Source: Streptomyces thermodiastaticus
GTDB lineage: Bacteria; Actinomycetota; Actinomycetes; Streptomycetales; Streptomycetaceae
NCBI RefSeq assembly: GCF_014656135.1
Contig: NZ_BNBV01000015.1
Location: forward strand, 1-64,000
Direction of reading: 5' to 3'
Length of the DNA stretch: 64,000 nucleotides
Shown here: positions 15,361-27,487 of the stretch, piece by piece
Layout: each line of letters starts with the position of its first letter
Numbering within the stretch: the first letter of the stretch is position 1
Notes under the pieces: generated by a model
Databases searched by the model: none
Told to the model about the DNA's origin: nothing
Seen by the model: the letters and a program-made list of their open reading frames with translations, nothing else
Program-made: the position numbers and the translations under genes

Positions 15361-16590
15361 TCACAGGGCCACGCCGAGCAGCGCGTCCACGGCACGGGAG
15401 ACCAGGCCGGGGGCGCCGGTGTCCGTGCCGCCCCGCTCCTGCTGGAGCGCGACCCAGCGGTCCACCGCGGCGAGCGCCGCCGGGGTGTCGAGGTCGTCGG
15501 CGAGGGCCTCGCGGATCTCCTCGATCAGGGCGTCCGCGGCGGGCCCGTCGGGCCGGGAGACGGCCGAACGCCAGCGGCCCAGGCGGGCGACGGCTTCCTG
15601 CAGGCCCTGGTCGGTCCACTCCCAGTCGGAACGGTAGTGGTGGGCGTGCAGGGCGAGCCGGATGGCGGCGGGGTCCACGCCGTCGCGCCGCAGCTGGGAG
15701 ACGAACACGAGGTTGCCCTTGGACTTGGACATCTTCTCGCCGTCCAGCGCGACCATGCCGGCGTGGACGTACGCCTTGGCCATGGGGAACTCGCCGGTGA
15801 GCACCTGGGCGTGCGAGGCGCCCATCTCGTGGTGCGGGAAGGCCAGGTCTGACCCGCCGCCCTGGACGTCGAAGCCCATGCCGAGGTGGTCGAGGGCGAT
15901 GGCCACGCACTCGATGTGCCAGCCGGGCCGGCCACGGCCCAGCGAGCCGCCGTCCCAGCTGGGCTCGCCGTCGCGGGCTGCCAGCCACAGCAGCGGGTCG
16001 AGCGGGTTCTTCTTGCCGGGACGGTCGGGGTCGCCGCCGCGCTCGGCGGACAGCAGCCGCATCGCGGTGGCGTCGAGGCGGGAGACCTGCCCGAAGTGGG
16101 GGTCGGACTCGACGGAGAAGTAGATGTCCCCCTCCAGCTCGTAGGCCGCGCCGAGGTCGCGCAGCCGTTCCACCAGCGGGACGATGCCGGGTATCGCCTC
16201 CACGGCGCCTGTGTAGTGCTTCGGGGGCAGCATGCGCAGGGCGGTCATGTCCTCGCGGAACAGGGCCGTCTCCTGCTCGGCGAGCTTCACCCAGTCCACG
16301 CCGTCGCGCTGCGCTCGCTCCAGCAGCGGGTCGTCGACGTCGGTGACGTTCTGGACGTAGTGCACCTGCCGCTTGGTGTCGAGCCATACGCGCTGCACGA
16401 GGTCGAACGCGTTGTAGGTCGCCGCGTGACCCATGTGGGTCGCGTCGTACGGGGTGATGCCGCAGACGTAGAGACGGGCGACGGGTCCGGGGCGGAGAGT
16501 GACCCGTCCCCCGGACGCGGTGTCGTGGATCCTCAGGTCGCGGCCCTGACCTGGCAGGGCGGGGACTTCGGAAGCGGGCCAGGCATGCAT
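15361..16590 (-). CDS. mshC: Mycothiol ligase (Cys:GlcN-Ins ligase)
   Basis: ATP-dependent ligase joining cysteine to the amine of GlcN-Ins in mycothiol biosynthesis; related to cysteinyl-tRNA synthetase. 409 residues, matching MshC and shorter than CysS. The N-terminal motif [14 protein letters not shown] carries the zinc-binding Cys and a HIGH-like HMGHA; the KMSKS loop is [10 protein letters not shown] near residue 290; a helical domain follows. No ribosome site precedes the ATG at 16590, but TACGCT lies 6 bases upstream on the coding strand, suggesting a leaderless transcript. It is the last gene of a conserved actinobacterial cluster, 189 bases after the SCO1664-family gene. Confidence 0.95.
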
Positions 16591-16779
16591 GTCATGAGCG
16601 TAACCGGGGGTCGGTTCCGTCCACGAACCGGACTGTCCGAATGACCGGGAAGGCACTCTTGCCGAACGTCCGCGGATGTGATCCGCCGCTGCCGGTCTCG
16701 GGCGTTTCGCACCTGTCGCGGGGGGAACGGGCGGGTTCCGCCCGCGGGCCCCGCACCGGTACCGGGGAACCGGCGGGCC

Positions 16780-18301: not shown

Positions 18302-18988
18302 TCACGGTGCTCCCGCTCCGCCCCCCACGGGTGCGTCCTCGTCCGCGGGTTCCTCGCGCGGGACGAGCGAGGCGAAGTCGCCGGTGTCGCCCAGCCGGAC
18401 CAGGAAGGGCCGCGTCCGGGTGTAGCGGATCGCGGTCACCGAGCAGGGTTCCACGGCGATGCGCTGGAACAGGTCCAGGTGCAGGCCGAGGGCGTCCGCG
18501 ACGAGGGACTTGATGACGTCGCCGTGGGAGCACATCAGGTAGACGGCGTCGGGGCCGTGGTCGCGCTCCACGCGCGCGTTCCATTCCCGCACCGCCTCGG
18601 CGGCCCGGGTCTGCATGGCGCGCAGGGACTCGCCGCCGGGGAACGCCGCGGCCGAGGGGTGCGCCTGCACCACCTCCATCAGCGGCTCGTCCTTCAGCTC
18701 GGCGAGCTTGCGGCCGGTCCAGTCGCCGTAGTGGCATTCGCCGATCCGCTCGTCGGTGTGGACGGTCAGCCCGGGACGGGCGTCCAGGAGAGGCTGTACG
18801 GTCTCCCGGCAGCGTTGCAGCGGACTGGTGACGACCTCGGCGACCGGCAGGCCGTCGAGCCGGCCGGGCAGCGCGGCGGCCTGGGCGGCGCCGCGTTCGT
18901 CCAGACCGACGCCGGGGGACCAGCCCGCGAGCACGCCCGCGGTGTTGGCGGTGGACCGTCCGTGCCTGACGAGGAGCAGCATGGGCAT
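18302..18988 (-). CDS. Histidine phosphatase (phosphoglycerate-mutase-like)
   Basis: Member of the histidine phosphatase superfamily, 228 residues. The catalytic phospho-histidine motif LLLVRHGRSTANT sits at the N-terminus, ECHYGDWTG carries the family acid region, and the second catalytic His is in VYLMCSHGDVIK. Like the related mycobacterial protein next to mshC, it is annotated as a phosphomutase-like phosphatase; the substrate is unknown. The start is either ATG 18988 or 18982, neither with a clear ribosome site. First gene of the four-gene minus-strand group ending in mshC. Confidence 0.87.
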   Translation of the reverse strand: MPMLLLVRHGRSTANTAGVLAGWSPGVGLDERGAAQAAALPGRLDGLPVAEVVTSPLQRCRETVQPLLDARPGLTVHTDERIGECHYGDWTGRKLAELKDEPLMEVVQAHPSAAAFPGGESLRAMQTRAAEAVREWNARVERDHGPDAVYLMCSHGDVIKSLVADALGLHLDLFQRIAVEPCSVTAIRYTRTRPFLVRLGDTGDFASLVPREEPADEDAPVGGGAGAP

Positions 18989-19049
18989 GCGGCCAGGGTA
19001 GGCGTACACGCGGAGTGTGCGTCAGCCGGGCGAAGGGAGAACACGCTCC

Positions 19050-21430: not shown

Positions 21431-21623
21431 CCGCATCCCCTTACCGATGAGTAACGTGCTTCGTGCGCAGACCCTAGCGCGGGGCCGTCACCCGCGGCAG
21501 CTCCCGCGGGTGTGACGGCCGCCTCGCGGGCCGGGGCGGGCAGGCCGCGCGGCGTGCCGGGGGCCGGTGCGTTGCGCACGGGGTCACCCACGTGGCGGGT
21601 CACGGCCAGTAATCTCGGCATTC

Positions 21624-22607
21624 ATGGAGCAGAGGCAACTCGGCCGTACCGGCCTGCGCGTGTCCAGGATCGGCCTCGGCACTCTCACCTGGGGGCGGGA
21701 CGTCGACGAGCACGCCGCCGCGGACCTGCTGAAGGCGTTCTGGGAGGCGGGCGGCACCCTCGTCGACACGGCCGACGTGTACGGCGACGGAGAAGCGGAG
21801 TATCTGCTCGGGCGGCTCATGAAGAACCTGGTGCCGCGCCGTGATCTGATCATCTCGACGAAGGCGGGCAGCGTCCCGGACCCGGACCGCCGCTTCGACT
21901 GCTCCCGCGGCCACCTGCTGTCGGCACTGGACGCCTCCCTGGCCCGGCTGGGCACGGACTACGTCGACGTGTGGCACGTTCACGCCTACGACCCGTACAC
22001 CCCGCTGGAGGAGACCCTCCAGGCCCTGGACGTGGCCATCGGCAGCGGCCGGGTGCGGTACGCGGGGGTGTCGAACTTCTGCGGCTGGCAACTCGCCAAG
22101 GCGGCGACCTGGCAGCTCGCGGCGCCGGGCGCGCGGACCCGGCTGGCGAGCACCCAGATGGAGTACTCGCTGCTGCAGCGCGGTGTCGAGCGGGAGGTGC
22201 TGCCGGCCGCGATCGATCTCGGCATCGGCATGCTGCCGTCCTCCCCGCTCGGGCGCGGCGTGCTGACCGGCAAGTACCGCAACGGGACGCCGCCGGACTC
22301 CCGGGGCGCCTCGGAGCATCTGGCGCCGTTCGTGGAGCCGTACCTGGACGAGACCGCGGGCCGCATCGTGGACGCGGTGACGACGGCGGCGGACGGTCTG
22401 GCGGTGACCCCGCTCCAGGTCGCCCTGGCCTGGGTGCGGGACCGGCCCGGCGTGACCGCCCCGATCGTCGGCGCGCGCACGGCGCAGCAGCTCGCGGCGG
22501 CATTGTCAGTGGAGGCCCTTAATCTTCCGGAGGAAATCTGCCGGGCGCTCGACGACGTGTCGACGCCCGTGCACCGCTATCCCGATCACGACTGGAGCAC
22601 GCTGTGA
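21624..22607 (+). CDS. Aldo/keto reductase
   Basis: NADPH-dependent reductase of the AKR superfamily, 327 residues, like YajO/Tas-type members. The catalytic tetrad is visible: Asp in LVDTADVYGDGE (with Tyr of VYGDGE), Lys in IISTKAGS and His in DVWHVHAYD. The C-terminal cofactor region is APIVGARTAQQL. No ribosome site precedes the ATG, but TAATCT (21610-21615) lies 8 bases before it, so translation may be leaderless. A local AT-rich codon patch occurs at about 22500-22545. The stop codon overlaps the next start (GTGA), coupling it to the RecD2-like gene. Confidence 0.9.
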   Translation: MEQRQLGRTGLRVSRIGLGTLTWGRDVDEHAAADLLKAFWEAGGTLVDTADVYGDGEAEYLLGRLMKNLVPRRDLIISTKAGSVPDPDRRFDCSRGHLLSALDASLARLGTDYVDVWHVHAYDPYTPLEETLQALDVAIGSGRVRYAGVSNFCGWQLAKAATWQLAAPGARTRLASTQMEYSLLQRGVEREVLPAAIDLGIGMLPSSPLGRGVLTGKYRNGTPPDSRGASEHLAPFVEPYLDETAGRIVDAVTTAADGLAVTPLQVALAWVRDRPGVTAPIVGARTAQQLAAALSVEALNLPEEICRALDDVSTPVHRYPDHDWSTL

Positions 22608-25030
22608 GCACGGAGCCGGAGACCACGGAGAACGCCGAGCCGGGGGCCCGGGACACCGTGGAGCCCGGTACGGCGGACGCGGCACCGGCCGAGGACGCCG
22701 CCGGGGCGGAGGACGGCCCCGCCGGCGCGGCCCCGGACACGGACGCGACGGGAAGCGGGGCACCCTCCGGGGGCGGCGCGCCCGGCGGGGGTGAGGACGG
22801 CGGGACGACGGACGGCGGGACGGTCCCGGATGCGGACACCGGCGCCGAGGACGCCGCGGACACGGACACCGTCGCGCGGGACACCGCCGACACGGGCGAA
22901 GACGGCGGGGACGGTGCGGCCGCGTCCGAGATGTCGGAGGCGGAGGCCGAGCTGGCCGCGCAGCGGATCGAGCGGGAGCGCATCGAGCGGCGCAAGGCGC
23001 AGAAGAAGGGCCCGATCGAGAGCGGGGGCAAGCTCACCGGCCGGGCGGCCGAGCTGCTCGCGGCGGTCCGCGCGGTGGAGAGCGGGGAAGCGGCCCCGGC
23101 CGCCGTCTTCGCGCCGCCGCAGCCCGAGCCGGCGCGGCGCGCGCCCGCCCCGGAGCCGGTCCGGCGGCCGGGTCCGGTGACCGCCGGGCGAACCGGCGCT
23201 CTGCCGGTCCCCGACCCGCGGACCGTGCAGGCGCTGCGGCGGGTGCTCGCCGAGGGCGGCGCCCCGGAGGCGCTCGCGGTGCCGGCCGCCACGGTGCTCG
23301 GCGCGGGCGCGGGGGAACGGCTGCGGGAGGACCCCTGGCAGCTGCTGCGCGTCAGCGGGGTACGGCCCGAGCAGGCCGACGGCTTCGCCCGGACCCTGCT
23401 CGGCGACGCCTGCGGTCCCGGCGACGCACGGCGCGGCCGGGCCTTCACCGTCTGGCTGCTGCGGCAGGCGGCCCTGGCCGGTCACACCTGTCTGGAGATG
23501 CCCGCCCTCGTCGAGGCCCTGGCCCGGCGCGGGGTGCCGGACCCGGACGCCGCACTGCACGCGGCCGTCGCGGAGGGCGAGGCCCTGGTGTTCCAGGACG
23601 CCCTGGACGAGCCGGGCGCGGCACCTGCCGCCGTCCGCGGCCGGGACGGCACGGTGGGCGAGGAGGAGGACGACGTCCGCCCGGTCCGGGTCCTGGTCGG
23701 CCTGGAGCGGTTCGCGCTCGCCGAGGAGAGCCTGGCCGACGGACTGGTACGGCTGGTGAACTCACCGCCGCGGCCCGTCGCCGCCGAGGACTGGGAGCGG
23801 GCCGCGACGTCCGCCGGGGGGTCGGCCGCCGAGCTGATCCGGGCGGTCGCGGCCCACGGCCTGGTGCTGCACACGGGCGGGGAGGCATCCCGCGTCGACC
23901 CGGCACGGCTGCTGTGCGCGGCCCGTGCTCTCGGGCTGCGCGCCTCGGCCGTCACCCACAGCCCGCTCGGCCGGGACGCGTTCGCGCGGCTGCTGCGGCA
24001 GGAGCAGGCGCAGCAGCCGACGGACCGGTCCCCCGGCGAGGGAGCGTCGACGGATCCGGCCGGGAACGACGCGTCTCCCGTGGCCACGGTGGCCGGGCTG
24101 CTGTCGGGTGCCGAGGGGCCGGGACGGGACGCCGACGGCAGCGTCGAGGCCGACCTGCTGGTCGTGCTGGACGCCCCGCAGCTCGACGTGGAGACCGCGG
24201 CCCTTCTCGTGGAGTCGCTGCCGGACGGGGCCCGGCTGGTGCTGGCCGGGGACCCCGGTGTGCTGTGGTCCGTGGGTCCCGGGCGGGTGTTCGCGGACCT
24301 GCTGGCGGCCCGGGTGTGCCCCCAGGTGGCCTCCCGGGTGCCGGATCCGGGACCGCTGGGCGAGCTGGTCTCCGGTGTGGGCGTCGGCGAGCTGAACCAG
24401 GTGGCGGCGCCCGGCAAGGAGGTCGTGATCGTGCCGGTGCGGGACGCCGGGGAGGCCGTGCACCGCACCGTCCAGCTCGTCACGGACTCGGTGCCGCGGG
24501 CGATCGGCGTCCCGGCCGAGCACACCGTGGTGATCACCCCGGGCCACGGTGGCGCGGCGGGCACCCGCGCCCTGAACGCCGCGCTCAAGGAACGTCTCAA
24601 TCCGGGGCCGGGCCGCTTCGGCGGCTTCGACCCGGGCGACCGGATCGCCTACTCCCCCGTCCCGGGACGTACGCTGCCCGGCCATGTGGTGACGGCCGAC
24701 GCCGACGGGCTGCATCTGTCCTGTGCCGGCACCGCCGTGGTGGTGCCCCAGGAGCAGGTGGAGTCCCGGGTACGGCACGGCTGGGCGCTGACCGCGCACC
24801 AGGCCGTGGGCGGCCGGTGGCCCGCGGTGGTCGTCGTCCTGCCCGGCGATGCGACGCAGGCGCTCAGCCGTCCGTGGGTCTACACGACGTTCGGCCGGGC
24901 CGGCCGTCATCTGTCCGTGGTGCACGGTGCCGGCCAGGCGCTGCCCCGGGCCGTGGCCGAGGTGCCGGCGAAGCCGCGCACGACCCGGCTGCCCGTGCTG
25001 CTGCGCCAGCAGGAGCAGCAGGCGGCCTGA
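22604..25030 (+). CDS. RecD2-like protein with lost helicase motifs
   Basis: 808 residues. Residues 1-115 are an acidic, low-complexity, disordered region, followed by a charged helical segment (about 116-150). About 200-330 resembles the helix-hairpin-helix region of RecD2 helicases. The rest aligns by eye with the RecD2 motor, but the Walker A position reads TGGEASRVD (424-432) instead of GGxGTGKT, and the Walker B position reads LLVVLDAPQ (518-526) where VVDEAS is expected. Motif III is kept as LAGDPGVLWSVGPG (547-560), and the C-terminal TAHQAVGGRWPAVVV and YTTFGRAGR (760-768) resemble motifs V and VI. It is probably unable to hydrolyse ATP; role unknown. GTG start overlaps the reductase stop. 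Conserved codon bias argues against a pseudogene. Confidence 0.75.
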   Translation: MSTEPETTENAEPGARDTVEPGTADAAPAEDAAGAEDGPAGAAPDTDATGSGAPSGGGAPGGGEDGGTTDGGTVPDADTGAEDAADTDTVARDTADTGEDGGDGAAASEMSEAEAELAAQRIERERIERRKAQKKGPIESGGKLTGRAAELLAAVRAVESGEAAPAAVFAPPQPEPARRAPAPEPVRRPGPVTAGRTGALPVPDPRTVQALRRVLAEGGAPEALAVPAATVLGAGAGERLREDPWQLLRVSGVRPEQADGFARTLLGDACGPGDARRGRAFTVWLLRQAALAGHTCLEMPALVEALARRGVPDPDAALHAAVAEGEALVFQDALDEPGAAPAAVRGRDGTVGEEEDDVRPVRVLVGLERFALAEESLADGLVRLVNSPPRPVAAEDWERAATSAGGSAAELIRAVAAHGLVLHTGGEASRVDPARLLCAARALGLRASAVTHSPLGRDAFARLLRQEQAQQPTDRSPGEGASTDPAGNDASPVATVAGLLSGAEGPGRDADGSVEADLLVVLDAPQLDVETAALLVESLPDGARLVLAGDPGVLWSVGPGRVFADLLAARVCPQVASRVPDPGPLGELVSGVGVGELNQVAAPGKEVVIVPVRDAGEAVHRTVQLVTDSVPRAIGVPAEHTVVITPGHGGAAGTRALNAALKERLNPGPGRFGGFDPGDRIAYSPVPGRTLPGHVVTADADGLHLSCAGTAVVVPQEQVESRVRHGWALTAHQAVGGRWPAVVVVLPGDATQALSRPWVYTTFGRAGRHLSVVHGAGQALPRAVAEVPAKPRTTRLPVLLRQQEQQAA

Positions 25031-25115: not shown

Positions 25116-25838
25116 TCAGGTCCGGTCCAGCGGCTCCAGGTCGTCCTCGTCCTCGTCGCCTTCCTCGAACCCGTCGTCCTCCTCGTCCTCCTCGTCGTCG
25201 AAGTCGTCGTCCGCGTCGTCGTCGAACTCGTCGTCGTCGAAGACCGCGCTGACGTCGAAGCGGCAGACCACCTGCTCGGGGTCGACATGGTCGAAGGGTG
25301 CCTCCAGCCATTCGCCGGGGTCGGCCGCTTCGTCCGCGGCCGTGACCCACAGCGTCGAGTCGCCCTCCTCCAGGCCGAACTCCCGGTGGCGGGAGGCGAT
25401 CTCGTCCGGCTCGTACTCGCCGAACAGGACGCCGAGCGCTCCGTGCAGCGAGCCGGTGGCGCCCTCGCCGATGCCGGTGCCCGTCTCGACGTCCGCGGCC
25501 TCCACCCGCTGGGCCTGGGACAGCAGCCGCCGCGGCTCGGCGACGGTGTAGTCGCGGCGGATCAGCACGCTGATCGCGTGGGGTTCCTCCGGGCCGGTGT
25601 ACGGCGGCAGCGTGTCGTCACCGGGGATCTCGAAGGGTGTGACCTCGTCGTAGCGGTCGTAGAGCAGCTCGTCGTACGCCTCGGCGGCGGCTGCCAGCTG
25701 GTTGAACGCCTCGTAGACGGCCGGGTCGTCCTCCCCCGACCTGCGTTCGACCGCGGCGAGATGGCGGTCGAGCGCGGCCTTGACCGCCTCGGCGGCGGCC
25801 CGTACCTCGGCAGCGGTGGGCTGCGCAGCATCAGACAT
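25116..25838 (-). CDS. Conserved hypothetical protein with polyacidic tail
   Basis: 240 residues, family not recognised by function. Residues about 1-190 look globular, with helical repeats early (AAEAVKAALDRHLAAVERR). The last 40 or so residues are almost all Asp and Glu (for example DDDADDDFDDEEDEEDD). Such tails occur in proteins that bind basic partners or nucleic-acid-binding proteins, but that is only inference. The ATG at 25838 lacks a ribosome site; TAGCGT lies 7 bases upstream on its strand, so a leaderless message is likely. It diverges from the DUF5703 gene across only 47 bp. Confidence 0.75.
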   Translation of the reverse strand: MSDAAQPTAAEVRAAAEAVKAALDRHLAAVERRSGEDDPAVYEAFNQLAAAAEAYDELLYDRYDEVTPFEIPGDDTLPPYTGPEEPHAISVLIRRDYTVAEPRRLLSQAQRVEAADVETGTGIGEGATGSLHGALGVLFGEYEPDEIASRHREFGLEEGDSTLWVTAADEAADPGEWLEAPFDHVDPEQVVCRFDVSAVFDDDEFDDDADDDFDDEEDEEDDGFEEGDEDEDDLEPLDRT

Positions 25839-25845
25839 ACTGCAG

Positions 25846-25878
25846 ACGCTATCCGTACCGGGCCTCAGCCCGCACAAT
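25846..25878. promoter_or_regulatory. Overlapping divergent promoters, both apparently leaderless
   Basis: On the minus strand TAGCGT (25846-25851) is 7 bases before the ATG at 25838. On the plus strand CACAAT (25873-25878) is 7 bases before the ATG at 25886. The boxes are 21 bp apart, so each -35 region must overlap the other promoter. Confidence 0.55.
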
Positions 25879-25885
25879 AGATGCG

Positions 25886-26074
25886 ATGCCGGAATACGAA
25901 TTTGTCGACGTGTACGTACCGCGCGGGGTCTCCCGCAAGGAGACGACACGTCTGCTGACGGACCACGCCGAGTACGGACACTGGGAGTTGTACCGCCTGA
26001 GCCTGCTGCGCGACGGCAGCCGCCGGGTGCGGCTGCGACGGCGGATCATCCGCCAGGTGCGCGCCACCTGGTGA
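25886..26074 (+). CDS. DUF5703 small protein
   Basis: 62-residue protein of the DUF5703 family, found in Streptomyces and relatives. The sequence starts MPEYEFVDVYVPRGVSRKE and ends in a strongly basic stretch RRVRLRRRIIRQVRATW, so it may bind nucleic acid or another acidic partner. Its divergent neighbour carries a polyacidic tail, which makes a basic/acidic pairing tempting but unproven. No ribosome site; likely leaderless. Function unknown. Confidence 0.8.
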   Translation: MPEYEFVDVYVPRGVSRKETTRLLTDHAEYGHWELYRLSLLRDGSRRVRLRRRIIRQVRATW

Positions 26075-26206: not shown

Positions 26207-26989
26207 TCAGGCCGACGCCCGGGCCTTGCGGTAGAGGAGGGCGCCGGCGAGGAGCGCGCCCGCGCCGGTCGGCAGCAGCACGCCGAGCGGCAGCTCGCTT
26301 CCGGTCTCGGCGAGCTGGGCCGTGTGCGGCGTGGTGACGGTCTGCGGAGCCGGGTGGTTCACGGGCACGGAGTCACCGGGCGTGCTGGTACCCGGGGTGT
26401 CCGGCGTGGTGGGCGTACCCGGGCGGCCCGGCGTGCCCGGGGTACCGGGGTGGCCCGGGTGACCGGGACGGTCCGGAGGGTTGCCGTGGTCGCCGGGCGG
26501 CGTGGTGTGGCCGCCGGAGCCGCCGTCGTTCGCGCAGCCGTTGCCCACGGCGGCGTTGCCGATGCCGATCACGTCGACGCTGTTGCCGCAGACGTTCACC
26601 GGCACGTCGACCGGGACCTGGATGTGGTTGCCGGAGCCGACGCCCGGTGAGCCCTCGCTGTGGCCGCCGGCGTGGGAGCCGCCGTCCGTCCCCCCGTGGT
26701 CGTGGCCGCCGTGTCCGGTGCCGCCCTGGTGCGCGGACGAGTCGCTGCCGCCGTTGGCGCACGCGTTGCCCACGGCCGGGTTGAGCACACCGACGACGTC
26801 CACGGTGTTGCCGCAGACGTTGACCGGCACGTGTACGGGCACCTGCACCGAGTTGCCGGACAGCACGCCCGGCGAGTGGGACGCGGCGCCGGTCGCGCCC
26901 GCGTCGGCATGGGCGGCACCGCTCGCGGCGGCGATCACGCCGGTCGCCGCCGCCACGGTCATCAGGCCCTTGCGGGTGACCTGTCGCAT
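26207..26989 (-). CDS. chpC: Long chaplin with sortase sorting signal (ChpC type)
   Basis: Cell-wall-anchored chaplin of 260 residues, part of the amyloid-like hydrophobic coat of aerial hyphae. After a Sec signal peptide (to about residue 28, ending AAHADA) come two chaplin domains, each with its Cys pair: VCGNTVDVVGVLNPAVGNAC and VCGNSVDVIGIGNAAVGNGC. A His/Gly linker and a Pro/Gly/Thr-rich wall-spanning stretch follow, then the sorting signal LAETG, a hydrophobic segment and the charged tail YRKARASA. Start ATG 26989 with an AGGGA site. Adjacent to chpH, the same order I recall for chpC-chpH in S. coelicolor. Anchored by a housekeeping sortase encoded elsewhere. Confidence 0.93.
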   Translation of the reverse strand: MRQVTRKGLMTVAAATGVIAAASGAAHADAGATGAASHSPGVLSGNSVQVPVHVPVNVCGNTVDVVGVLNPAVGNACANGGSDSSAHQGGTGHGGHDHGGTDGGSHAGGHSEGSPGVGSGNHIQVPVDVPVNVCGNSVDVIGIGNAAVGNGCANDGGSGGHTTPPGDHGNPPDRPGHPGHPGTPGTPGRPGTPTTPDTPGTSTPGDSVPVNHPAPQTVTTPHTAQLAETGSELPLGVLLPTGAGALLAGALLYRKARASA

Positions 26990-27175
26990 GTATGGAATCC
27001 CTGTCTTCGACCTTCTGGAACCTTCCGGAACGCGTGGTCGCGGGCGGCGTGCGCGCCGCCGTGACCGCGCGGAAAGACCGGCCGGCCCCGGAACGCGTGG
27101 CGCGCGCTCCAGGGCCGACGGCTTAGGACCCCCCACGGAGCCGATGGAGTCAGACCCGCTGAGCGGGGCGCGACG

Positions 27176-27409
27176 TCACTTGTTGATGCAGGTGTTGCCG
27201 AAGGCAGGGTTCAGCAGCCCGATCACGGAGATCGTGTTGCCGCAGACGTTCACCGGCACGTGCACGGGCACCTGGATGACGTTGCCGGACACGACGCCCG
27301 GGGACTGCACGGCAGCGCCCTGGGCACCCGAGTCGGCAGCAGCCAGGCCCGCACCCGCGAGAACCAGTCCACCGGTGGCAACCGCGGTCGCGACGACCTT
27401 CTTGAGCAT
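27176..27409 (-). CDS. chpH: Short chaplin ChpH
   Basis: 77-residue secreted chaplin: Sec signal peptide (MLKKVVATAVATGGLVLAG... to about residue 26) followed by one chaplin domain with the Cys pair in VCGNTISVIGLLNPAFGNTC and the terminal INK. Short chaplins self-assemble into surface-active fibrils that let aerial hyphae break the water surface. ATG 27409 has an AGGAGGA site. A promoter matching the BldN sigma-factor consensus lies upstream at 27460-27487. A weak 5-bp hairpin (27155-27167) follows the gene. Confidence 0.95.
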   Translation of the reverse strand: MLKKVVATAVATGGLVLAGAGLAAADSGAQGAAVQSPGVVSGNVIQVPVHVPVNVCGNTISVIGLLNPAFGNTCINK

Positions 27410-27459
27410 TCTTCCTCCTAGTTGGCAGGTGCGATCACATGGAGCCGATCGCATGAGAT

Positions 27460-27487
27460 GCAACGAGGCGGAGGTGATCGGGATACG
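27460..27487 (-). promoter_or_regulatory. BldN-type promoter of chpH
   Basis: On the minus strand, CGTATC (27482-27487) and CGTTGC (27460-27465) are separated by exactly 16 bases, close to the remembered sigma-BldN consensus CGTAAC-16-CGTTGA. The transcript would start about 45 bases before the chpH ATG. chpH is a known BldN target in Streptomyces. Confidence 0.7.

Follow-up and report, generated by a model that had tools for sequence, protein, structure and literature searches.

What keeps a helicase gene in nearly every member of a bacterial family once its ATPase motifs are gone? The question is raised by a gene of Streptomyces thermodiastaticus (assembly GCF_014656135.1), found in a window of 64,000 nucleotides that spans positions 1-64,000 of contig NZ_BNBV01000015.1. 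The gene (22604..25030, + strand, GTG start), delimited from the list of open reading frames, the domain profiles and the fold, encodes an 808-residue RecD2-like protein that we call a pseudohelicase. We think that it probably serves as a binding scaffold that works independently of ATP, and that it is translated together with an aldo/keto reductase (AKR). An original prediction, made from the letters of the window, had described it as adapted for binding or regulation; like that description, the scaffold role, the ligand and the partner discussed below are what we infer.

Fold and ATPase motifs

The predicted RecD2-type features are present in the protein. Its helix-hairpin-helix (HhH) region HHH_RecD2 (PF14490; residues 209-296, 23228..23491, on the + strand like all features of the gene given below) scored 35.7 bits against a Pfam cut-off of 27. 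UvrD_C_2 (residues 725-773) was barely over its own Pfam cut-off (27.6 vs 27.4), and a match to AAA_30 was slightly under. The NCBIfam profile of the SF1B helicase RecD2 (TIGR01448) matched with an E-value of 4e-29 and 101 bits, and missed the family cut-off of 500 bits. Since the same genome separately encodes a canonical RecD2 (contig C25, 838 bits against TIGR01448), the 808-residue protein is a second, divergent relative.

Structure prediction returned the fold of RecD2. The AlphaFold model of residues 196-808, built with 88 sequences, had a mean pLDDT of 94.2 and a pTM of 0.93; the three best Foldseek matches were RecD2 entries of Deinococcus radiodurans, and VIA-align superposed the model on 3e1s with a Z of 32.4 and an rmsd of 2.6 over 487 residues, the RecD chains of RecBCD coming next (Z 19.8-22.2). 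These three results rule out an unrelated fold. The alignment profile also matched 3e1s by sequence (E 2.5e-98). An earlier AlphaFold model built on a narrower alignment was poor (pLDDT 67.6) and was kept out of the fold searches. With RecD2 (TIGR01448; D. radiodurans 3e1s, 3gp8 and 3gpl) the protein shares the fold over these 487 residues, the HHH_RecD2 region and the order of the motifs, but it lacks the Lys of Walker A, the DE pair of Walker B and the RQ of motif IV, adds an acidic arm and has no Pfam match before residue 209. In an alignment of 87 of the 103 selected loci it was 25-29% identical to 12 canonical rows, and 37-42% identical over residues 196-808 to active rows from families f7, f12, f14 and f18, which are among its closest homologues (of the family codes used here, f1 is the window's own, the Streptomycetaceae; loci with a member of the pseudohelicase family came from 17 codes).

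The former Walker A motif (TGGEASRVD, residues 424-432, 23873..23899), placed by the alignment and the model, aligns with TGGPGCGKS of the genome's own RecD2, from which it differs by the lack of two residues and of the Lys. The model places the end of a strand at residue 424 and the beginning of the following helix at 428, which leaves only about three residues for the P-loop. The other motifs were placed by alignment. The former Walker B (LLVVLDAPQ, residues 518-526, 24155..24181) aligns with LVVVDEASM of the same RecD2 and has lost the DE pair. Motif III (residues 546-560, 24239..24283) reads GDPGVLWSVGPG where the canonical form is GDVDQLPSVGAG; it had been described as kept, which is true only in part, its Q and P being lost. 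At the former motif IV (residues 575-590, 24326..24373) the RQ of the active forms is replaced by a stretch of the type SRxPDPGPxGEL, with four alignment columns missing. Motifs V (residues 724-739, 24773..24820) and VI (residues 757-773, 24872..24922) are altered.

The erasure of both Walker motifs, as claimed by the original prediction, recurs consistently in the Streptomycetaceae. We aligned the window's protein with the best 80 of 472 relatives, from named Streptomyces loci, a set of 81 sequences that leans to close relatives. None of the 81 has a Lys at positions 420-436 or a DE pair at 516-530, and the exact strings TGGEA and DAPQLD are kept in 69 and 75 of them. The patterns of Walker A, Walker B and motifs III, IV and V are likewise missing from all 66 f1 rows (which count the window genome twice, as Q and as L088). 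The pattern of motif VI was found in 18 of the 66, the window's own not among them, and many rows keep the Arg in a changed context. Remnants of the P-loop are graded, from GPGEEP in subgroup f1g5 through GPG in f1g2 and f17 to TGG-EA in most of f1. Active relatives and canonical RecD2 share 110 conserved columns. In 44 Streptomycetaceae rows, 51 of these columns still reach a conservation of at least 90%, and many of the others fall in motifs I, Ia, II, III, IV, V and VI. With a P-loop that lacks two residues and the Lys, and with the acids of Walker B and the Arg of motif IV gone, the protein can probably hardly bind or hydrolyse ATP, to judge from its sequence.

The core is preceded by a long acidic arm of low complexity (residues 1-108, 22604..22927), also foreseen by the original prediction and delimited by composition: it holds 27 D/E against 2 K/R, a net charge of -25. 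The arm drifts in sequence and stays acidic: of 80 orthologues, 78 have a net charge there of at most -5 (counted over at most 90 residues before the conserved helix); its low complexity suggests that it is disordered. A conserved, predicted helical segment (residues 109-160, 22928..23083), defined by the alignment and the model, leads from the arm to the core. The first AlphaFold model predicted helices at residues 112-139 and, with low confidence, 147-160. A search of the genome's other proteins with the conserved helix gave, beyond the protein itself, nothing better than an E-value of 0.05. A plasmid search returned 86 records, all below 60% identity, and the matches listed were distant RecD-like helicases. 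We also considered, and rejected, an anti-phage defence gene. Eight PADLOC models matched (best E 3e-14), none across the whole protein; the matches cover residues 515-568 and 712-776, which belong to the shared SF1 motor.

Relatives, retention and selection

The original prediction had implied that in orthologues the aligned column would not hold a complete Walker A. There are homologues in which it does, but only in other families and outside the eroded clade, which makes the intact motif the ancestral state. Walker A, Walker B and motifs III and IV are intact in all 26 rows of f7, f10, f12, f14, f16, f18 and f21, and motifs V and VI in 24 of them, the other two (L141 and L142) ending at a contig end before these motifs. 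Full-length dead forms occur in the Streptomycetaceae and in f17, whose eight rows have no intact motifs except III in three and VI in four. A truncated group of 13 rows (f2, f6, f8, f20, f22, f28, f31 and f38) has none except VI in two. The f22 sequence, L151, ends with its contig and its P-loop region is unseen, so that truncated forms are shown for seven families. The short forms keep parts of the HhH, the Walker B-to-IV and the C-terminal stretches, and not the P-loop stretch.

How many times was the motor lost? In a tree of 87 rows (f1 thinned; L143-L154, L134, L141 and L142 left out) the family and canonical RecD2 form distinct groups (100/100), and the Streptomycetaceae form one clade with f17 (100/98), so that the trait needs one change. 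A tree of 202 columns that includes the truncated forms (without L151, L141, L142 and the window row; f1 and canonical rows thinned) also gives an eroded clade (98/91) and one change, though its long branches advise caution. Grouping the Streptomycetaceae with f14-type active rows was rejected (p-AU 0.0018). The trees thus favour a single inactivation, followed by full-length dead, truncated and apparently absent forms. The last are represented by L230 (f19) and L234 (f13), where no gene separates the AKR gene from HYP, the gene found beyond the pseudohelicase in the window, and the distance between their stop codons is 0 and 20 bp, respectively; from the tree, the RecD2-like gene would have been lost there rather than originally absent.

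Selection on the Streptomyces proteins was estimated from 400 random pairs among the 81 sequences. The former P-loop (dN/dS 0.134), the former Walker B (0.082) and motifs III (0.145), V (0.153) and VI (0.084) are all at low values, which indicates a functional rather than a decaying protein. Domain 2A (0.158) is the most strongly constrained large region, compared with 0.224 in domain 1A, 0.234 in the HhH region, 0.41 in residues 301-360, 0.32 in residues 105-165 and 0.78 in residues 1-104. The gene is also nearly always there: a survey of the Streptomycetaceae found a match in 60 of the 61 genomes and in all 17 genera, the only miss (G038) being an assembly of 1650 contigs. Across the class, 75 of 197 genomes matched at E 1e-10; counted by hand, 67 of these have a member of the pseudohelicase family and 8 have a canonical RecD2 alone. 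Six matches of the Streptomycetaceae survey have a stop codon inside. We read four of them (L102, L103, L104 and L110), and in each an open frame spans the core and the stop stands at one end of the match. A pseudogene or a false frame of GC-rich DNA is ruled out by the low dN/dS and the conservation.

It could be argued that function went with the motor and that the gene is slowly disappearing. The truncated forms hint at this, and the sharing of one address by full-length dead, truncated and absent forms would fit. We regard this as very improbable. It is contradicted for Streptomyces by the dN/dS of 0.08-0.24 in the motifs and the main core and of 0.41 in residues 301-360; retention in the sampled Streptomycetaceae genomes and the open frames in the four stop-containing matches also stand against it. 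For the short forms such a decay may hold. In the Streptomycetaceae, near-universal retention together with strong selection points to a new job for the dead motor.

Companion helicases and chromosomal address

The loss of the motor could have been allowed by redundancy with RecD2. In the class survey, a RecD2 over the TIGR01448 cut-off was present in 16 of 16 f1 genomes, in all eight f17 genomes with eroded forms and in 12 of the 13 f18 genomes bearing a family member; none was found in the family-bearing genomes of the other active or truncated lineages. Redundancy could therefore apply to f1 and f17, and leaves the truncated families unexplained. The same distribution bears on a use like that of RecC, in which the dead motor fold would join a larger DNA-processing complex as a passive subunit, next to a working helicase, for instance the genome's intact RecD2. 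Escherichia coli RecC has an SF1-like fold without motor function inside RecBCD; it resembles the pseudohelicase in this, but belongs to a different subfamily and to a known complex. The regular presence of RecD2 in f1 and in eroded f17 genomes and the conservation of domain 2A above other large regions are in line with such a use. Yet no genome with a truncated form has a RecD2 over the cut-off, the window genome's own RecD2 gene lies on a different contig (C25), and no identified neighbour is a known recombination enzyme; we hold a RecC-like subunit to be unlikely.

Two observations concern other RecD-like proteins. The f17 genome G113, which has a canonical RecD2, encodes on contig C6 another RecD2 over the cut-off (L205, 722 bits), whose long branch leaves the tree at the base of the canonical group. 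Genomes of f4, f26, f28 and others encode RecD-like proteins of about 150-270 bits against TIGR01448, under the cut-off, with no match to the pseudohelicase family profile at E 1e-10 in the same positions.

The gene lies in a syntenic block. In the window the order is mshC, for the mycothiol ligase (15361..16656, - strand), a phosphomutase gene of the MSMEG_4193 family (18302..19009, - strand), one further gene, a divergent gene for an LLM-class F420-dependent oxidoreductase (TIGR03559; 20375..21436, - strand), the AKR gene (21567..22607, + strand, likely start 21624), the pseudohelicase gene and HYP, a convergent gene for an acidic-tailed protein (25116..25949, - strand). Beyond HYP are two chaplin-like genes and that of an M20-type peptidase (PRK07906; 27607..28932, - strand), which, like mshC and the phosphomutase gene, marks the block. 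The two genes at 26207-27463 (- strand), which we presume to be chaplins, differ in length, and the long one has an LAETG end of the sorting type; locus L134 (f8) has small secreted-looking proteins in a similar place.

Several active homologues occupy the same chromosomal address as the dead form. The AKR gene is upstream of the active gene in the f7, f10, f12, f14 and f16 loci that were read, and genes of the MSMEG_4193, TIGR03847 and SCO1664 families are found next to the active f18 gene L131. SCO1663 is mshC and SCO1664 is close to it, according to the part of PMC4255298 that deals with them.

The AKR is the first candidate partner, to go by the arrangement of the genes. Its stop codon overlaps the start of the pseudohelicase gene in a 4-bp GTGA (22604..22607, + strand), in keeping with the translational coupling stated by the original prediction and found in all 86 scored Streptomyces loci out of 91 (three in another orientation were unscored, L002 and L029 have no AKR, and the window genome is included twice). 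Among the 60 loci L095-L154, 49 have the AKR gene in the same orientation, one has it on the opposite strand, and in ten it was not found (eight f18 loci, and L135 and L138, which are on short stretches); its spacing to the gene ranges across loci from the 4-bp overlap to about 3 kb. The AKR itself carries DTADVY, STK and HVHA, which we take to be the D-Y-K-H tetrad of an active AKR enzyme, and among solved structures 7utf and 8hwn are closest to it. HYP was found in 27 of the 60 loci. These belong to f1, f1g5 excepted, and to most of the truncated lineages; the searches of active and f17 loci gave no HYP. Neither Pfam nor NCBIfam matched it at E 1, and PADLOC did not match it at E 0.01. Relatives of HYP occur near the AKR gene in f13, f19 and f37 loci.

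This co-occurrence of the AKR gene, the RecD2-like gene and HYP, in the Streptomycetaceae except f1g5 and in most truncated lineages, would fit a reading in which nucleic-acid binding has gone as well and the fold serves by protein binding alone, as an adaptor for the AKR, HYP or both. The altered motifs Ia, IV and V would agree with this, as would the parts kept by the short forms (HhH, Walker B-to-IV and C-terminal, without the P-loop stretch). But the AKR gene and HYP adjoin without a pseudohelicase in one f19 and one f13 locus, and the HhH region and domain 2A are still well conserved; we hold a pure adaptor to be quite unlikely.

Possible mechanism and precedents

The ATP-independent scaffold that we favour could have arisen as follows. 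The ancestor would be an active RecD2-like SF1B helicase in the mshC-linked block of class chromosomes. Its ATPase would have been lost once, as the trees support. The Streptomycetaceae then kept the scaffold under purifying selection, with the arm and the conserved helix in front. Having presumably no ATP cycle, the protein would be left with one fixed conformation. The most likely mode would be a nucleotide-independent clamp or scaffold, in which domain 2A and the HhH region may hold nucleic acid or protein in one fixed state while the acidic arm and the helix may recruit or regulate a partner. As domain 2A is the most constrained large region, a nucleotide-free clamp acting through it is a reasonable guess. 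In its most specific form, the dead motor, domesticated as a core protein of the Streptomycetaceae, would clamp nucleic acid through 2A, nucleotide-free, and tie it to an NADPH-dependent AKR synthesised together with it, as a redox- or aldehyde-responsive scaffold within the mycothiol-linked block; taken as a whole, this version is distinctly doubtful.

Several results weigh against the scaffold as we propose it. Motifs Ia and V, which we take to touch DNA, are damaged as well, so that DNA binding may be gone. The link to the AKR is loose: an AKR match (E 1e-60 or better) was found in 158 of the 197 class genomes, against 67 with a family member; none of 20 AKR loci from family-less genomes held a remnant of the gene (best E 0.039 in 751 open reading frames; one locus, L226, ends soon after the AKR gene); the AKR gene was absent from all eight f18 loci searched; and the 4-bp overlap is rare outside Streptomyces. 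An obligatory partnership with the AKR is weakened by its spread in family-less genomes and by the AKR-less f18 loci. As for the fold, the 35 inactive Streptomyces rows alone gave an AlphaFold pLDDT of only 67.6, and the model with a pLDDT of 94.2 benefited from an alignment that also contained active and canonical rows. Long-branch joining, also within the model of the p-AU test, may favour the tree with a single loss. Finally, the apparent loss of the gene in some genomes means that its function is dispensable there.

Pseudohelicases as such are already known. The nearest tested precedent, as far as the consulted part of PMC4504706 goes, is the PriA of D. radiodurans, with degenerate Walker A and B, no ATPase or unwinding activity, DNA binding kept and evidence of contact with DnaB. 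The likeness lies in the same two degenerate motifs in a bacterial helicase; the difference is that the precedent belongs to the PriA family, is a known restart protein and has a Lys-to-Arg change in Walker A, whereas here the P-loop is shortened. That part also counts among the marks of a pseudohelicase an origin from an ancestral helicase and the lack of ATPase and unwinding; the intact relatives outside the eroded clade give our protein such an origin, and its loss of motifs would agree with such a lack. The part seen of PMC1193525 deals with RecD2 from two Streptomyces and with a PriA of actinobacteria that is small and divergent, and makes no mention there of a dead RecD2. Among the matches listed by our literature search, which covered few subscription journals, none dealt with this protein or with an inactive RecD2 in actinobacteria.

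The family shows in unusual completeness how a helicase can lose its motor and still be of use: the series runs from intact through dead but full-length and truncated forms to absence, and several of these stages share one address. Direct tests of a nearly universal protein of the Streptomycetaceae are now within reach, and its active relatives provide natural controls.

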